In this document: positions 1,038-35,153 of the stretch, one piece after another
Position numbering within the stretch: the stretch's first letter is position 1
Layout of the letters: every line of letters starts with the position of its first letter
Program-made: the position numbers and the translations under genes
Assembly (NCBI GenBank): GCA_001799395.1
Contig: MGTJ01000088.1
Span: 4,930-46,807 of the forward strand
Source: Desulfobacterales bacterium RIFOXYA12_FULL_46_15
GTDB taxonomy: Bacteria; Desulfobacterota; Desulfobacteria; Desulfobacterales; Desulfobacteraceae
Direction of reading: 5' to 3'
DNA: 41,878 nt
The notes under the pieces: generated by a model
Database searches by the model: none
What the model saw: only the letters and a program-made list of their open reading frames with translations
Told to the model about the DNA's origin: nothing

Positions 1038-2324
1038 TTATAATCCCACTTCAGCCAGGTCCGGCCCGAGATAGGTTCGTTCAGATTCACCCAAAACCCC
1101 CATGGCCAGGCAGATGATGGTCCACAGATGGACGACATGGTAATTGCCGCCATAGTGATGGCCGATATCTTCAATCTGACCGTGGCAGTTGTGACAGGGT
1201 GCAATGACGTAGTTTGCCCCGGTGGCTTCAATCTGGTTGAATTTGATCCTGCCGAATGCCCTTCTTTCATCCGGGAATCCTGCCTGCAAAGCGCCGCCGC
1301 CGCCGCCGCAGCAATAATTGTTATCACGGCTGGGTACGGTATCAATAAAATTTTCTTCGCCTACAACAGTTTTGATCACAAACCGAAGATCATCCACAAT
1401 TTTATTGGAGCCGCTCTTTCTGGCTATATTGCAGGGGTCCTGGACCGTGAATTTGACCTTTAATTCCTTGTTCCAGTCTGAATTTACTTTAAGCTTTCCT
1501 TCCCTGATCCACTGGGCGTAAAGCTCGATAATGGTGATCAGTTGGAATTTGTGGGGGATATTGAATTTTCGCAATCCTTCCAGGATCGCAAAATAGGAAT
1601 GCCCTCACTCGGTATTGACCACCATGGGACTTTTCAGGTTATTGTCAATATGGTAGGCAAACTCCTCGATGATATATTTCCAGCCTTCATTATCCGCCAT
1701 GAACATGCAGTAATTCTCACCGGCCCACATGACCGAAGGATAGGTCCAGTCTGCCCCCACAGAATGGAGAATTTTCCACAGGGGACCCATTTCTTCAGGT
1801 TCGGTGACAGGCTCCCTTGAATTCTGGTTCAGCACCATAACGGCACCTTCACGGTCCACGGAGACCTCCAGGTCTTCAAACCCGGGATGGCTTTCCCGGA
1901 TTTCTTCAGCCACATCCAGAACCGTGAATTCAAAATCTTCCTTTTTGGCTCCCATGGCGCTGCCGGTCCTGATATGCTGGTCACAGGACCCGAGGATTCC
2001 CTTGGGCCGCTTTTCCCTTGGGATAGCGGCCCGAAGGTTGAATACCAGGGCCGGGATATTGATTTTCATGGGACAGGCTGCCACACACCGCTGGCACATG
2101 CTGCACACCCATTTCCAGTTGCTTTTCAGGATCACATCATCCATGCCGAGATTCAGCATCCGGATCAGCTTTCTCGGATCCATATCCATCAGCTCCGAGG
2201 CTGCGCACCCGCCGGTACAGGTTCCACAGGTCAGGCAAAGATCAAAGTTCGCCGCCGGTACCTTTCCCAGGACCTCGTCTTTAAACTCAATATCAAGTTC
2301 ATCAATCTTAATCGCCTCTGCCAT
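1038..2324 (-). CDS. HdrC-HdrB fusion, probable selenoprotein (UGA-encoded Sec240)
   Basis: Iron-sulfur subunit of an Hdr-type complex, 428 residues if the UGA at 1605-1607 is read as selenocysteine. The N-terminal HdrC half has two [4Fe-4S] motifs (C30-x2-C33-x2-C36-x3-C40 and C74-x2-C77-x2-C80-x3-C84). The C-terminal half has a canonical CCG cluster motif: C298, C338-C339-G, C377-x2-C380. Reading stops at a TGA between TE and GHSY, and the same frame continues with full HdrB homology. The paralogue at 33945-35153 has SECGHGY there, so the UGA replaces a cysteine. A 12-bp hairpin follows the UGA. Neither half alone is a complete protein, and the second half has no plausible own start. It lies 14 bp after the MetF-like gene and 16 bp before hdrA, so the three are probably co-transcribed. 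A degraded gene or a sequencing error is the alternative, but the conserved flanks and the hairpin argue against it. Confidence 0.88.
1567..1607 (-). promoter_or_regulatory. UGA(Sec) codon with SECIS-like hairpin
   Basis: On the minus strand the TGA at 1607-1605 is followed by 11 nt and then a hairpin. The 5' arm TTTTGCGATCCT (1593-1582) pairs over all 12 positions, with two G-U pairs, with the 3' arm AGGATTGCGAAA (1578-1567), leaving a GGA loop (1581-1579). The loop begins with G and lies 23 nt after the UGA. As I recall them, bacterial SECIS rules (UGA-to-loop spacing of about 16-37 nt, G in the first two loop positions) are met, and the 11-nt spacer resembles that of E. coli fdhF. The hairpin lies in coding sequence, as expected for bacterial SelB-dependent recoding. 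Confidence 0.82.
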
Positions 2325-4006: not shown

Positions 4007-5083
4007 ATGAATAAAAAAACAATTTTCTCATTACTCGCAGGCATTATTGTTTCCATTGCAGCATTATATTTATCTCTGCACAATGTCCCGTTTGCCGATC
4101 TTTTTTCTTACCTTGCTGTAATCAATTATGGATGGGTCCTCTTGTCCGGGGCGGTTGCCGTACCCTGCTTCGTGTTGAGGGCCTTTCGCTGGCGCATCAT
4201 TCTTGAAAATAAAAAAAAACTTGGCTTCTGGCCTGTATTTCATCCCCTGATGATCGGGTTTATGCTTAACAGTATTCTTCCGGGAAGAATCGGTGAAGCG
4301 GCAAGACCTTATATATTAAGCAAAAAAGAAAATCTTCCGTTTATAACTGCTCTTGCCACAGTTGCGGTAGAAAGATTAATGGACATGGGCTTTTTAATCA
4401 TTCTGTCTGCTGCAGTGTTAACCACACTGGACATAGCGCCGGACCTTACCATCTCTTTCGGGGGATATCAATTGAGCCCGGAGAATCTGTCAAGTGCGGG
4501 AAAAGGATTGCTTCGCCTGTGCCTGGTAGTGATAGGGGGTATTCTCATGGTAATGGTTCCGTTCACCCGGTCCCTGATTCAGAAGCTTATTCTTTTTGCT
4601 CCTGAAATACTCCCTTTTTGTACAAAAGCATTCAAACATCATTTAAAAGAAAAACTCATGCAGCCGGTGGTGAACTGGATCAATCTTTTTTCCGCCGGGT
4701 TTTCCCTTTTGAAAAATCCTGCAAAAATAGCCCAGTGCTTCATCCTCACCATTTTGATCTGGGGAGGGACGGCCCTGACCTATTATGTCATGGCCAAAGG
4801 ATGCCCCGGCGTTGAATTGTCTTATCCAAAATCCATCGCTTTAATGGTGATCATCTGTCTCTTCATTGCCCTGCCTTCAGCTCCAGGCTACTGGGGGTTA
4901 TGGGAAGCCGGCGGCGTCTTCGGGTTATCCTTGTTCGGCGTTCCGGCAAAAATCGCAGCAGGCTATACCCTGACCAATCATTTTATCCAGCTTCTCCCGG
5001 TGATTGTCATCGGCTTGATTTCCGCCATGGTCACCGGCGCTGGTATCTTTCAGATGGCGAAAATCCGTAAGGAGCCCTTATGA
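4007..5083 (+). CDS. UPF0104/lysylphosphatidylglycerol-synthase-TM family membrane protein
   Basis: A 358-residue polytopic inner-membrane protein with about eight or nine hydrophobic segments from residue 8 onward. The conserved family region LRAFRWRIIL (about 58-67) and NSILPGRIGEAARPYIL (about 88-104), followed by AVERLMDMGFL, places it in the UPF0104 family. That family is the membrane half of MprF/AglD-like proteins and is often linked to lipid flipping or lipid-linked glycosylation. The C-terminal part PSAPGYWGLWEAGG is also typical. There is no cytoplasmic synthase domain, so it is not a full MprF. It overlaps the next gene by 4 bp (ATGA), so the two are translationally coupled. Substrate cannot be told from sequence. 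Confidence 0.75.
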   Translation: MNKKTIFSLLAGIIVSIAALYLSLHNVPFADLFSYLAVINYGWVLLSGAVAVPCFVLRAFRWRIILENKKKLGFWPVFHPLMIGFMLNSILPGRIGEAARPYILSKKENLPFITALATVAVERLMDMGFLIILSAAVLTTLDIAPDLTISFGGYQLSPENLSSAGKGLLRLCLVVIGGILMVMVPFTRSLIQKLILFAPEILPFCTKAFKHHLKEKLMQPVVNWINLFSAGFSLLKNPAKIAQCFILTILIWGGTALTYYVMAKGCPGVELSYPKSIALMVIICLFIALPSAPGYWGLWEAGGVFGLSLFGVPAKIAAGYTLTNHFIQLLPVIVIGLISAMVTGAGIFQMAKIRKEPL

Positions 5084-31110: not shown

Positions 31111-31449
31111 TGTTCTATTTTTCTCTTCTTATGAACATCCGTTACATTCAAGTATTCCAAAAATCCGCAGGAACAGGAAAACAACTTTTACCTTGTAAAA
31201 GCGCAGGACTCATGCGTGATGCATATTTCACAAATAATCCTTTTATCATTTTCAGTCAAGATTTTTTCAGGTCCGGCAGGACCGGGGCTTTCCCTGAAGC
31301 TTAAACTCTTTTTCCCCTGGAATTTTGCTGTGAGTCTCTGAATTCATTTTTTTTTAACTTTTTAATATGATAAGAGTAAAATCTGTCTTAGGATGTGCTT
31401 TATTGATTAATTTTTACTATGCCGGTATTGCTGAATAGTGGAGGAGAAT
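31111..31449. other. Intergenic region between divergent FapA-like and HdrA-MvhD genes
   Basis: About 339 bp with no open frame of note. A weak promoter-like pair for the plus strand (TTCATT at 31343-31348 and TATGAT at 31366-31371, 17 bp apart) lies about 80 bp before the HdrA-MvhD start. No strong inverted repeat, sigma-54 element or RNA fold was seen. Confidence 0.5.
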
Positions 31450-33930
31450 ATGGAAAAAATAATCCCGAATATCCTGATCATCGGGGGAGGCGTTGCCGGA
31501 ATGGCCGCTGCCCAGGCCCTTTCGGACCAGGATGTCGTCATACATGTAGTGGAAAAAGAAACCGCATTGGGTGGCCATGCCGCCCAATGGGCCTGCATGG
31601 CCACCCAAACCTGTGAAAACTGCGGCGCCTGCCTGAGCATTGAAACTGCAAGCCTGGTTCAAAAACAAAAAAATGTAAAACTCCACCTCCATACCATGGT
31701 TGACCACATCGAAAAAAAAGACCAGGGCTATATGGTGGTTCTGGAAAACAATGACTCTTTCATCATTCAAAAAATCATCATGGCTTCAGGATTTTCTCCC
31801 TTTGACCCCCAAAAAACCCCTTCCCTGCATTATGGCACCTGCCCCAATGTCATTACCACGGCTGAGCTGAATACCTTCCTGAAAAATGAATCCATTTCAG
31901 GCCTTCTCAAGGACAGACCTGAACCGAAAATCGCCTTTATTCAGTGTGTGGGATCAAGAAACAGAGACAAAGGAAGGGATTACTGCTCCCAGGTCTGCTG
32001 CAAAATATCCATGCGGCAGGCCCATAAGCTGACCCATCTTTATCCAAAAGCCGATATCACTCTTTTCTATATGGACCTTCAAATCATTGGAAAAGAAATC
32101 AGGACCTTTTACAATGCCCTGTCCAAGAAAATTTCCCTGGTTCAGGGTGTTCCTGCTGAAATCCTTGAAAATCCGGATACGCATCTGCCAACCCTTGTGA
32201 CAGAAGACAAGACAACCCAGTCAAGGGTTGCCCGATCCTTTGATCTCATTGTTCTTTCCGTTGGTCTGCTGCCGTCCAAAACCCTTGAAAAGACATCCGG
32301 GATACTGGACCTGACGCCGAATTCATGGGGTTTTTTCAATACAGACAACGCCGTGGTATCAAAAGATGTCTTTATTGCCGGGTGTGCCGGCGGGCCGAAA
32401 GATATCCTTTCCTCACAACAGGAAGGCAGGATTGCCGCTCAAAAAGCCGTTGAAGCGCTGGGCCTGGATACCCGGGCAAAAATCCCGGTTGCAGTATTCG
32501 GCGATGGCCACGAGGCGGATCAAACAGCCCTGACCCTTGCATTAAAGGGATATCCGGCCTATCTTTTCGGAAACGGAGCCGGTCTTGCAAAAGACGCCCC
32601 GGTGACGGTTTTCAAAGATGCCGGACCGATTTCCATCAGCGGCACTGCCGGTAATTTTTCAATTCATTATAAATCAGACAATCTGAACCGGCATCTCAAA
32701 TGTGCGGCCATTGTCGCTGCTGCCAAGCCCTTGCAATCCATGAACACACCAAAAGGAAAAATTGATAAAATTCTCAGCCTTGATGAATTTTCACACATGA
32801 TTGAAAAAACGCCTGAAAAATGCCCGGAGCGCGGCATCATCCTGATGGATTATTCAGGCCCGGCATATAAATCATCTGCAAGGCTTGCCCTGAGTGCAGG
32901 TCTTAAAGCCAGGGAGGCAGGAAAAGACATTGCTGTTATCATGAATAAAATGCTGGTCCACGGGGCACTGGGACAAAGGCTTTACGATGAGGCCAGAAGG
33001 CTGGGAATTGATTTTTTCCGGTATGAAACGCCTGAAGACCTCACTATTGAAGACTCGGGCCAGGGATTCCGAATAAGGCTGAAAGAGGCAACCCTGCCGT
33101 CTGTTTTCCTGGATCTTTCCTGTGATGCACTGATCCTTCCCCATACGGTTTCACCTGCCAAAGGCTTTGGGGATCTGGCCTGTCTTTTGCGCCAGCCCCT
33201 TGACAAGGAAGGCTTTCTTCAATCTGCCAATACCCGTCACCGTCCCACGCAGAGTCTTCGCAAAGGGATCTTTTTTGCCGGGACCTGCCATGACGAAACC
33301 GACCCGGATGATTTCAATCACGAACTTGATGAAATTTCATCTCTCCTGTCAACTCAGGATTTCAGTTTACCTGCAACCGATCCGGGCGTTGAGATCAACC
33401 AGAAAAAATGTGCCCAGTGTCTTACCTGTATCCGGATCTGCCCGCACAATGCCATTGTCATGAATGAAAAAAGCAGACCAGAGATTGTACCGGATTCATG
33501 TTTTTCATGTCATCTCTGTGTATCCAACTGCCCGGCCTATGCCATTGAATCAAAAACCATGGCCAATGATCAAGTGGCAGGCCTGGTTCAAAAAGGGGCT
33601 GTTACGGTTTTTGCCTGTGAACGGTCTGCGGCCCTGGCAGCAGGAAATCTCTCCTTGCCGGACCATATCCGTTTAATTCCCATCCCCTGTGCATGCCGGA
33701 TCAGCAGTGATATCATCCTTAAAGCGCTTTTAAACGGTGCATCAAAGGTCATTGTCTGCGGCTGCCACCCGGAAAACTGCAAATCCCATAAAGGCAGCAG
33801 GGTCGCTTCCGACAGCGTCCAAAAGGTTTTGTCCGTCCCCGGCGTAAACCAGGCCGGGATAGTCTTTGAACCTGTTGCAGCCAATGAAACTGCAAAATTT
33901 GAACGCATTATTTCCAAAGCAAAAGAATAA
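31450..33930 (+). CDS. HdrA-MvhD fusion, iron-sulfur flavoprotein (QmoB-like layout)
   Basis: An 826-residue electron-transfer protein. HdrA part: FAD-binding GGGVAG at about 10-15 and the cluster segment CMATQTCENCGACLS at about 49-63, CVGSRNRDKGRDYCSQVCC further on, then an NAD(P)H/FAD domain. Two ferredoxin motifs follow (CAQCLTCIRICP, CFSCHLCVSNCP). The C-terminal 130 residues are MvhD-like, with cysteines in VFACERS, IPCACRIS and VCGCHPENCKSHKG. Start at 31450 (GGAGGAG); a GTG four codons before is in the SD. The HdrA-plus-MvhD fusion occurs in QmoB and in uncharacterised Hdr clusters of sulfate reducers. It is followed 14 bp later by an HdrC-HdrB fusion, so the pair should form a minimal Hdr complex; the electron partners are unknown. 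Confidence 0.86.
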   Translation: MEKIIPNILIIGGGVAGMAAAQALSDQDVVIHVVEKETALGGHAAQWACMATQTCENCGACLSIETASLVQKQKNVKLHLHTMVDHIEKKDQGYMVVLENNDSFIIQKIIMASGFSPFDPQKTPSLHYGTCPNVITTAELNTFLKNESISGLLKDRPEPKIAFIQCVGSRNRDKGRDYCSQVCCKISMRQAHKLTHLYPKADITLFYMDLQIIGKEIRTFYNALSKKISLVQGVPAEILENPDTHLPTLVTEDKTTQSRVARSFDLIVLSVGLLPSKTLEKTSGILDLTPNSWGFFNTDNAVVSKDVFIAGCAGGPKDILSSQQEGRIAAQKAVEALGLDTRAKIPVAVFGDGHEADQTALTLALKGYPAYLFGNGAGLAKDAPVTVFKDAGPISISGTAGNFSIHYKSDNLNRHLKCAAIVAAAKPLQSMNTPKGKIDKILSLDEFSHMIEKTPEKCPERGIILMDYSGPAYKSSARLALSAGLKAREAGKDIAVIMNKMLVHGALGQRLYDEARRLGIDFFRYETPEDLTIEDSGQGFRIRLKEATLPSVFLDLSCDALILPHTVSPAKGFGDLACLLRQPLDKEGFLQSANTRHRPTQSLRKGIFFAGTCHDETDPDDFNHELDEISSLLSTQDFSLPATDPGVEINQKKCAQCLTCIRICPHNAIVMNEKSRPEIVPDSCFSCHLCVSNCPAYAIESKTMANDQVAGLVQKGAVTVFACERSAALAAGNLSLPDHIRLIPIPCACRISSDIILKALLNGASKVIVCGCHPENCKSHKGSRVASDSVQKVLSVPGVNQAGIVFEPVAANETAKFERIISKAKE

Positions 33931-33944
33931 AGGATCTATCAATA

Positions 33945-35153
33945 ATGGACAGCACAACCATAAATAAAAATTCAGTTTTATATACGCTTTTGAACCAATA
34001 TCCTCTGGGTGATAATATTTCCGAATGCCTGACCTGTGGTGCCTGTAATTCCAGGTGCACCTGGTTTGACGGGGAAGGCGGGCCATTGCCCCGCCAGATC
34101 ATCCGCATGGCTGCCCTGGGGCTTGATGAAGCCCTTGTCAAAACATCCATGATCTGGGACTGCCTTCTCTGCAACCGGTGCACGGAAGTCTGCCCCATGG
34201 GGATCACCATGGATAAAGTAGTCCGAAAGGCCCGGAGCCTTGCCATTGCCGATGATAAAATCCCGGGTGATATCAAAAAAGGCATTAAAAACCGGCTTGA
34301 GCTGGGCGATGTCAATGGTCTTACAAAAGAAGAATTTGTGGAAACCGTTGAATTTGTCAGCGAAGAATTTATTGATGAAGTGAATGATCCTCTGGCCCAT
34401 ATCCCTTATGATCAAAAAGGCGCAAAGCTTCTTTATCTCCCCAACCCCAGGGAACTGGGCATCAACCTCATGCATTTGACGGCCATGGCAAAACTCTTTT
34501 ATGCATCAAAACAAACCTGGACCCTGTCGTCCCGCCATACCGACGTCACCAACTGGGGATATTTTGTGGGAAAGGATGAGGTTGCAAAACAAATGGCGTT
34601 GATGGTGGTGGAACCTGCCGAGGAGCTTCAGATCGAAACCCTTGTCCTGTCGGAATGCGGCCATGGATACCATGTCTTAAAATACCTCCTTGAAGACCTG
34701 ATCGGCAGAAAACCCGAATTTGAAGTCCTCTCCATGCCGGAACTCCTGGTCCGGTATGCAGAAAAAGGAATTCTCAAATTCGACCCCAGCGTTCACCCTT
34801 ACAAAATCGCCTACCATGATCCCTGCAATATTGCCCGGAAATCAGGCGGATACGATGCACCCAGGCAATTGCTTTCCATGGTCTGTGACGGCGTAGCGGA
34901 ACTGACCCCCAACCGGGAGGACGGTATCTGCTGCGGCGGCGGCGGCGGCGCCCTCCAGGACAGCACTGCCACCAAAAAAAGAATGATAACTGGCAAACCC
35001 AAGGCCGACCAGATGAAAAGAGCAGGCCTGCCCAACCTGGCTACGGCCTGCCTGTCCTGCCACCGGCAACTGGGAGAACTGTCCGCTCATTTTAAACTGG
35101 GCATAAAAGTGGTAACCGTGGCTTCCCTGGCATCGGAATCACTGATCTTATAA
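33945..35153 (+). CDS. HdrC-HdrB fusion, cysteine form
   Basis: A 402-residue iron-sulfur protein, paralogue of the Sec-containing protein at 1038-2324. HdrC part: C28-x2-C31-x2-C34-x3-C38 and C73-x2-C76-x2-C79-x3-C83. HdrB part: C294, C329-C330-G, C369-x2-C372 (CCG motif). C238 in SECGHGY is the position where the other copy carries UGA, so the paralogue confirms which residue is recoded. It probably accepts or passes electrons from the adjacent HdrA-MvhD fusion. The start codon has only a moderate site (AAAGGATC about 10 bp upstream). The small hydrolase gene follows directly. Confidence 0.88.
   Translation: MDSTTINKNSVLYTLLNQYPLGDNISECLTCGACNSRCTWFDGEGGPLPRQIIRMAALGLDEALVKTSMIWDCLLCNRCTEVCPMGITMDKVVRKARSLAIADDKIPGDIKKGIKNRLELGDVNGLTKEEFVETVEFVSEEFIDEVNDPLAHIPYDQKGAKLLYLPNPRELGINLMHLTAMAKLFYASKQTWTLSSRHTDVTNWGYFVGKDEVAKQMALMVVEPAEELQIETLVLSECGHGYHVLKYLLEDLIGRKPEFEVLSMPELLVRYAEKGILKFDPSVHPYKIAYHDPCNIARKSGGYDAPRQLLSMVCDGVAELTPNREDGICCGGGGGALQDSTATKKRMITGKPKADQMKRAGLPNLATACLSCHRQLGELSAHFKLGIKVVTVASLASESLIL

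Follow-up and report, generated by a model that had tools for sequence, protein, structure and literature searches.

An in-frame UGA very probably encodes selenocysteine in the electron transfer protein HdrCB of a sulfate reducer

INTRODUCTION

Fe-S oxidoreductase-like proteins of the GlpC, or UGH, family combine a CCG domain with two [4Fe-4S] motifs. In the part of one source that was available, a "Fe-S oxidoreductase-like protein, PTHR43551, UGH" figures among predicted selenoproteins, whose functions are described as largely uncharacterized (PMC13188914), and in the accessible text of another the same reference protein (WP_174406253.1) appears as COG0247 (GlpC) (PMC9312934). According to similarly partial texts, a Fe-S oxidoreductase and a heterodisulfide reductase are among the selenocysteine (Sec) proteins of a marine deltaproteobacterium (PMC8318568), and a 2009 study reported Sec in HdrD4, a protein of Desulfobacterium autotrophicum HRM2 that combines HdrC and HdrB domains (PMC2702500).

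The Met complexes are the other described systems closest to the locus studied here. As far as the available portions of the sources go, the MetFV-HdrABC-MvhD complex of Moorella thermoacetica is treated in a review (PMC5861303), Met complexes have been predicted in 8 Proteobacteria genomes (PMC6085437), and metF-HdrABC has been reported in Seep-SRB1g (PMC10553843), a paper in the searched text of which the word "selenocysteine" is absent.

We analyzed a stretch of 41,878 nucleotides (the window; positions 4,930 to 46,807 of the forward strand of contig MGTJ01000088.1) from Desulfobacterales bacterium RIFOXYA12_FULL_46_15, the genome of which (GCA_001799395.1; 250 contigs) is 96.41% complete and 4.76% contaminated. 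The closest named relatives are Desulfobacula metagenome-assembled genomes, with an HdrCB identity of 93%. An earlier reading made from the sequence alone (the sequence-only reading) had noticed in the window an HdrC-HdrB frame with a single in-frame TGA, an observation that we confirm, and had interpreted the codon as Sec. The latter interpretation is supported by the comparisons described below, by which selenium in the protein is predicted.

RESULTS

A single HdrC-HdrB frame is interrupted by one UGA

The hdrCB gene occupies positions 2324 to 1041 of the minus strand as a single frame of 428 codons closed by a TAA at 1040 to 1038, and its sole interruption is a TGA at 1607 to 1605 (codon 240), after which the frame resumes unshifted, as the sequence-only reading had stated. 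With TGA translated as Sec, the residues around the site are NTE-U-GHSY, and the UGH motif is thereby present. The N-terminal part of the protein has two HdrC-like [4Fe-4S] motifs and the C-terminal, HdrB-like part has one complete CCG motif (Pfam Fer4_17 and Fer4_8 over the cut-off; CCG, 41.1 bits against a cut-off of 20.6), which is the layout of the GlpC/UGH family. The five cysteines of the CCG motif are C298, C338, C339, C377, and C380, and Sec240 lies outside this cluster, where it had been placed before. The span initially assigned to the gene, 1567 to 2324, covered its 5' part, but the HdrB CCG domain runs on to 1041. A mechanical list of open reading frames (ORFs) returns hdrCB as two pieces of 239 and 178 aa, the very split that had been foreseen for an automated caller.

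A second Hdr set, without Sec, is present on the plus strand of the window (31438 to 35153), where an HdrA-like protein is followed by a Cys-type HdrCB paralogue (33945 to 35153). This paralogue, 28% identical to HdrCB and used here as a comparison sequence, reads LSECGHGY at the same site, in line with the match of the TE-UGA-GHSY flanks to SECGHGY noted earlier.

hdrCB lies in an operon with metF

Directly upstream of hdrCB on the same strand is metF (3217 to 2339), encoding a methylenetetrahydrofolate reductase of 292 aa (Pfam MTHFR, 65.2 bits; cut-off, 24), and upstream of metF is a conserved gene for a MerR/HTH and response-regulator protein (3804 to 3232, minus strand; Pfam Response_reg and HTH_17). 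On the other side, positions 1021 to 2 of the minus strand encode the N-terminal part of an HdrA-GltD-HdrA fusion of the HdrL type that continues beyond the window; the whole fusion (L086:1523-5950) has 1475 aa, 7 of them unread, and contains no stop and no UGA. Past the left edge of the window lies mvhD (L086:1059-1486, minus strand; PF02662, 167.7 bits), whose CxxU motif contains an in-frame TGA (1438 to 1436). The same operon further encodes, downstream, a MetV-like protein (PF12225, 110.2 bits). The order is regulator, metF, hdrCB-UGA, hdrA-gltD fusion, mvhD-UGA, metV-like, and the MetFV-HdrABC-MvhD gene set (metF, metV, hdrA, hdrB/C, mvhD) is thus found together at the locus. The UGA of mvhD is likewise trailed by a hairpin, with the loop GGC, and MvhD is probably a selenoprotein too, the second in this operon.

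This arrangement recurs among the orthologues. Of the 33 from named genomes (L041 to L073), 32 have metF upstream and 32 have the HdrA fusion downstream, each exception being cut off by a contig end, and mvhD, each time with one TGA, is found in 24, the other nine sequences ending before it. Further loci (L108 to L120) have metF upstream in 12 of 13 cases, L120 beginning near a contig end, and metV occurs in all three orthologue loci that reach far enough (L086, L134, and L135). One locus with 19 matched residues (L085) was left out of these gene-context counts.

A different explanation would have HdrCB as a selenoprotein acting apart from MetF, as a general electron carrier of the HdrD/TmcB kind, and its best argument comes from more distant UGA-bearing relatives. 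The genome studied here has a second UGA-bearing HdrCB, about 60% identical (L087:2299-3597, contig C102), with no metF, metV, HdrA-fusion, or MvhD homologue within 8 kb (L087) or 11 kb (L132), and no homologue of metF, metV, or mvhD turned up in the searched surroundings of a UGA copy in genome G042 (59% identical, reading TE-U-GH). We nevertheless hold this explanation to be improbable: metF stands directly upstream in all the orthologue loci counted above except two, both of them at contig starts, and in a distant UGA clade about 60% identical (L121 to L127) four of the seven loci (L121, L122, L124, and L126) have a metF (25% identical) or metV (44 to 50%) homologue nearby. Within that clade, mvhD-UGA precedes and metV (44 to 45%) follows hdrCB-UGA in L122 and L126, the metF homologue (25%) is the neighbor in L124, and neither metF nor metV was found in the loci searched of L123, L125, and L127.

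In L121 (G072:C32:34001-41251), mvhD-UGA, metV (50%), and metF (25%) all precede hdrCB-UGA. Since this gene order differs, a Sec HdrCB may have become associated with MetF/MetV on more than one occasion.

The UGA alternates only with Cys codons

In the first set of homologues, 74 of 76 rows reach residue 240 and all 74 have TGA there, a conservation that excludes a chance TGA. Enlarged to 114 rows reaching this residue, the set holds 94 TGA, 17 TGC, and 3 TGT codons in the column; it includes 40 loci picked by their stop count, namely, 20 without a stop (L088 to L107; 20 of the 21 such rows among the matches listed, down to about 574 bits) and 20 with one TGA (L108 to L127), and it counts some genomes twice, L011 to L040 and L041 to L085 overlapping partly in genomes. 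Every row therefore has either TGA or a Cys codon, which bears out the proposal of the sequence-only reading that UGA replaces a conserved cysteine. Because the same TGA occurs in many independent assemblies, a sequencing error hiding a TGC or TGT is strongly argued against and was rejected. A frameshift was rejected as well, the alignment of 38 proteins having no gap at or beside the site. In all 38, the 28%-identical paralogue included, Glu239, Cys/Sec240, Gly241, and His242 are invariant.

The same data bear on the possibility that the TGA is a true stop, which would leave two genes, for a 239-aa HdrC-like protein and a 178-aa CCG protein with TTG 1574 as its start codon, or else a decaying pseudogene. 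Such a stop would agree with the two halves returned by the mechanical ORF list and with the use of TGA as terminator by 10 of the 34 long nonoverlapping ORFs of the window, that of hdrCB included. It is contradicted by the restriction of the column to TGA and Cys codons, by the gapless alignment and the invariant residues around the site, and by a predicted model of the protein (with Cys at 240; mean pLDDT, 84.5; pTM, 0.85), in which one fold spans residue 240. We consider a true stop highly improbable.

In a tree of 38 chosen proteins computed with the site removed, Sec and Cys switch at least 4 times, the direction of change not being readable; 11 of its 35 inner branches are weak and the outgroup branch is very long. 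One Cys orthologue, L088, nests inside the MetF-linked clade with a support of 95/95. Its operon (G096:C83) is regulator-metF-hdrCB-hdrA but has TGC for the TGA, which amounts to a natural exchange of Sec and Cys at one locus. Since this orthologue has Cys in the same operon, Sec at position 240 is not indispensable.

The genome has the Sec decoding genes, and a hairpin follows the UGA

The Sec genes that the sequence-only reading had named as a check are all present in the genome above the curated cut-offs: tRNA-Sec (76.1 bits; gathering cut-off, 47), SelB (341.1; 242.25), SelA (608.7; 267.9), and SelD (372.8; 125). The lack of selB or selC, which would have spoken against Sec, is thereby not the case. 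Among 14 control genomes, 5 were over the cut-off for tRNA-Sec, which is accordingly a loose test, 2 for SelB, 1 for SelA, and 2 for SelD. SelA was matched in 111 of the 116 relatives searched, in 110 of them over the cut-off. Of the 47 genomes having, among the matches listed, a UGA orthologue of at least 66% identity, all but one gave a match to SelA (46, of which 45 passed the cut-off); G014, 92% complete and with a UGA orthologue, has no SelA match, and G065, 63% complete, has a partial match only. No tRNA genes were found within the window with ARAGORN.

The selD gene of the genome (G000:C57:11291-12217, minus strand; L129) carries one in-frame TGA, and selenophosphate synthetase is for that reason probably a selenoprotein itself.

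A bacterial SECIS element is a hairpin that follows the UGA shortly, under rules of spacing, and has a G in its apical loop. In the window, a SECIS-like hairpin at 1593 to 1567 of the minus strand begins 11 nt after the UGA and has a 12-bp stem and a GGA loop, the first G of which is 23 nt from the UGA in the folded RNA; folding reproduced every element that had been described for it, and in position and apical-loop G it agrees with the bacterial pattern by both the fold and the comparative tests. Its stability was modest relative to dinucleotide shuffles (z, -1.99; equaled by 7 of 200) and marked relative to synonymous recodings, with codons drawn from the usage pooled over rows (z, -4.5; equaled by 0 of 300). 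The mean z for such recodings was -2.39 for 63 distinct UGA sequences, versus -0.34 for 20 distinct Cys sequences. For the UGA set, 96.0% of the cells of the inner eight pairs were formed, versus 54.4% for the Cys set (the maximum for 500 shuffles of the 3' letters was 90.9%, and slid versions gave 26 to 51%), and all 12 pairs were formed in 87.3% versus 60.0%. The first base of the loop is G in 63/63 UGA sequences. Two-sided changes occur, for example, at two neighboring pairs of the stem, from A-U to G-C (51 and 10 of 62 sequences) and from U-A to C-G (52 and 4). Weak folds among the UGA homologues are those of L127 (z, +0.31), L073 (-0.92), and L123, L124, and L126 (about -0.8 to -0.9). Conservation of the hairpin is seen among the UGA sequences but is absent among the Cys sequences.

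A reading of the TGA as Trp or Cys through a changed code or a suppressor, with which the open frame alone is compatible, is the least credible of the alternatives, given the full Sec decoding set, the hairpin confined to the UGA sequences, the 20 non-TGA rows that all have Cys and never Trp, and the termination of other ORFs of the window by TGA, on which ground a general code change was rejected.

Sec240 appears to map to the remnant of the first CCG site

The best structural match of the predicted model was EtfD of Mycobacterium smegmatis (9ojn; Z, 24.3; 367 residues; rmsd, 2.9), and the HdrB subunits 5odc, 8rvu, and 7bkb gave Z values of 19.7 to 20.7. A profile alignment placed Sec240-Gly-His242-Ser243 onto Cys-Pro-His-Cys of EtfD, in which the matched residues are Cys581, His583, and Cys584 in the numbering of PMC13083937. 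According to the available part of that paper, Cys581 and Cys584 help bind a linear [3Fe-4S] cluster, and His583 completes a noncubane cluster held by Cys637, 672, 673, 709, and 712; these five cysteines correspond to C298, C338, C339, C377, and C380 of HdrCB. The matching repeat of HdrB is Cys78-Asn-Gly-Cys81, with Cys81 as the bridging catalytic cysteine. Direct profile alignment put Cys78/Cys81 on the second repeat (score, -0.9), whereas repeat equivalence would pair them with Sec240/Ser243 and so set Ser243 at the position of the catalytic Cys81.

From the comparison with the EtfD and HdrB repeats, the first CCG cluster site appears to be lost save for Cys/Sec240, and Sec240 appears to be its one remaining thiol. 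His242, two residues away, is likely a ligand of the remaining noncubane cluster. The sequence alignment, read with the residue numbers of PMC13083937, would place Sec240 beside this cluster, and the selenol may act on it or tune it.

Assignment to CoB-CoM heterodisulfide reductase HdrB proper was rejected, HdrCB having one complete five-Cys CCG motif instead of two and scoring far under the curated cut-off of NCBIfam TIGR03288 (33.4 against 345.15 bits), as was assignment to TmcB, HmcF, and DsrK (177.5 of 735, 177.2 of 750, and 114 of 400 bits in NCBIfam). Judged by its motif and domains, HdrCB is a member of the described UGH Fe-S oxidoreductase (GlpC) selenoprotein family.

DISCUSSION

We consider it highly probable that hdrCB encodes a selenoprotein with Sec240; it would serve as the HdrCB subunit of a predicted MetF complex, with the selenol situated at the remaining noncubane cluster. 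SelB and tRNA-Sec would decode UGA codon 240 with the aid of the hairpin just downstream. As the gene order suggests, the product would be the HdrC-HdrB subunit of a MetF-MetV-HdrCB-HdrA/GltD-MvhD complex, related to MetFV-HdrABC-MvhD of M. thermoacetica and hosted by sulfate reducers related to Desulfobacula. Electron exchange would link the flavin of MetF, the HdrCB clusters, the flavins of the HdrA-GltD fusion, NAD(P)H, and ferredoxin, and the net flow would most likely oxidize methyl-tetrahydrofolate as substrates are completely oxidized. Sec240 would take the place of the only Cys left at the first CCG cluster site, and the one noncubane [4Fe-4S] cluster that remains probably has His242 as its final ligand. 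As Sec240 adjoins His242, the selenol would tune, or join in, electron and thiol chemistry at the cluster.

A more far-reaching proposal, conceivable though doubtful, is that of a methylenetetrahydrofolate reductase complex with two selenoproteins, in which the selenol at the lost-cluster site, next to a His ligand, is the redox partner of the noncubane cluster. If true, this would be a catalytic device distinct from both the linear cluster in EtfD and the pair of clusters at the HdrB site.

The sequence-only reading had supposed a Sec HdrB fused to HdrC in a MetF operon to be a lesser known variant. This holds for the MetF link, as no report of a Sec HdrCB in a MetF operon was found in the titles and abstract openings searched, which cover few subscription journals, and the main text of a Desulfotignum phosphitoxidans paper, in the part available, has no occurrence of selenocysteine or MetF; it does not hold for the protein as such, since the UGH family and the HdrC/HdrB-type Sec protein HdrD4 had been described. 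Worth keeping are the MetF-linked clade, the UGA-bearing MvhD that goes with it, and the position assigned to Sec in the structure, which would give a functionally uncharacterized selenoprotein family a concrete Sec location, at the remnant of a first CCG site and beside a noncubane cluster. Ordinary gene calling would cut hdrCB in two. The proposals are testable because an orthologue exists in culture, in Desulfospira joergensenii DSM 10085 (L064) at the least.

Going by the available texts (PMC13188914, PMC9312934, and PMC1794560), the GlpC/UGH family resembles HdrCB in being an Fe-S protein of Deltaproteobacteria with Sec followed by Gly-His and in occurring in operons with a Sec HdrA and FrhD (MvhD). 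Its operon, however, is glpC-hdrA-frhD-frhG-frhA, with a hydrogenase, whereas at our locus hdrCB is accompanied by genes for MetF and MetV and no UGA interrupts the HdrA-GltD fusion. HdrD4, as presented in the accessible part of PMC2702500, is likewise soluble, has HdrC and HdrB domains, and is reported to contain Sec. If G042 is strain HRM2 and its UGA copy is HdrD4, as we infer, the latter differs from HdrCB in being 59% identical and not located beside metF.

HdrB of HdrABC shares with HdrCB the fold (Z of about 20) and the C-terminal CCG motif, but in HdrCB the first CCG motif is lost except for Cys/Sec. EtfD, the best structural match, has His583 aligned with His242; unlike HdrCB, it has its first CCG site occupied by a linear [3Fe-4S] cluster and possesses a membrane part in addition. 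The MetFV-HdrABC-MvhD complex, finally, has in common with our operon, known from its genes, MetF and MetV together with the HdrA, HdrB, and HdrC functions and MvhD; in our operon, by contrast, a single protein combines HdrC with HdrB, a GltD-type NAD(P)H domain is joined to HdrA, and a UGA occurs in both hdrCB and mvhD.
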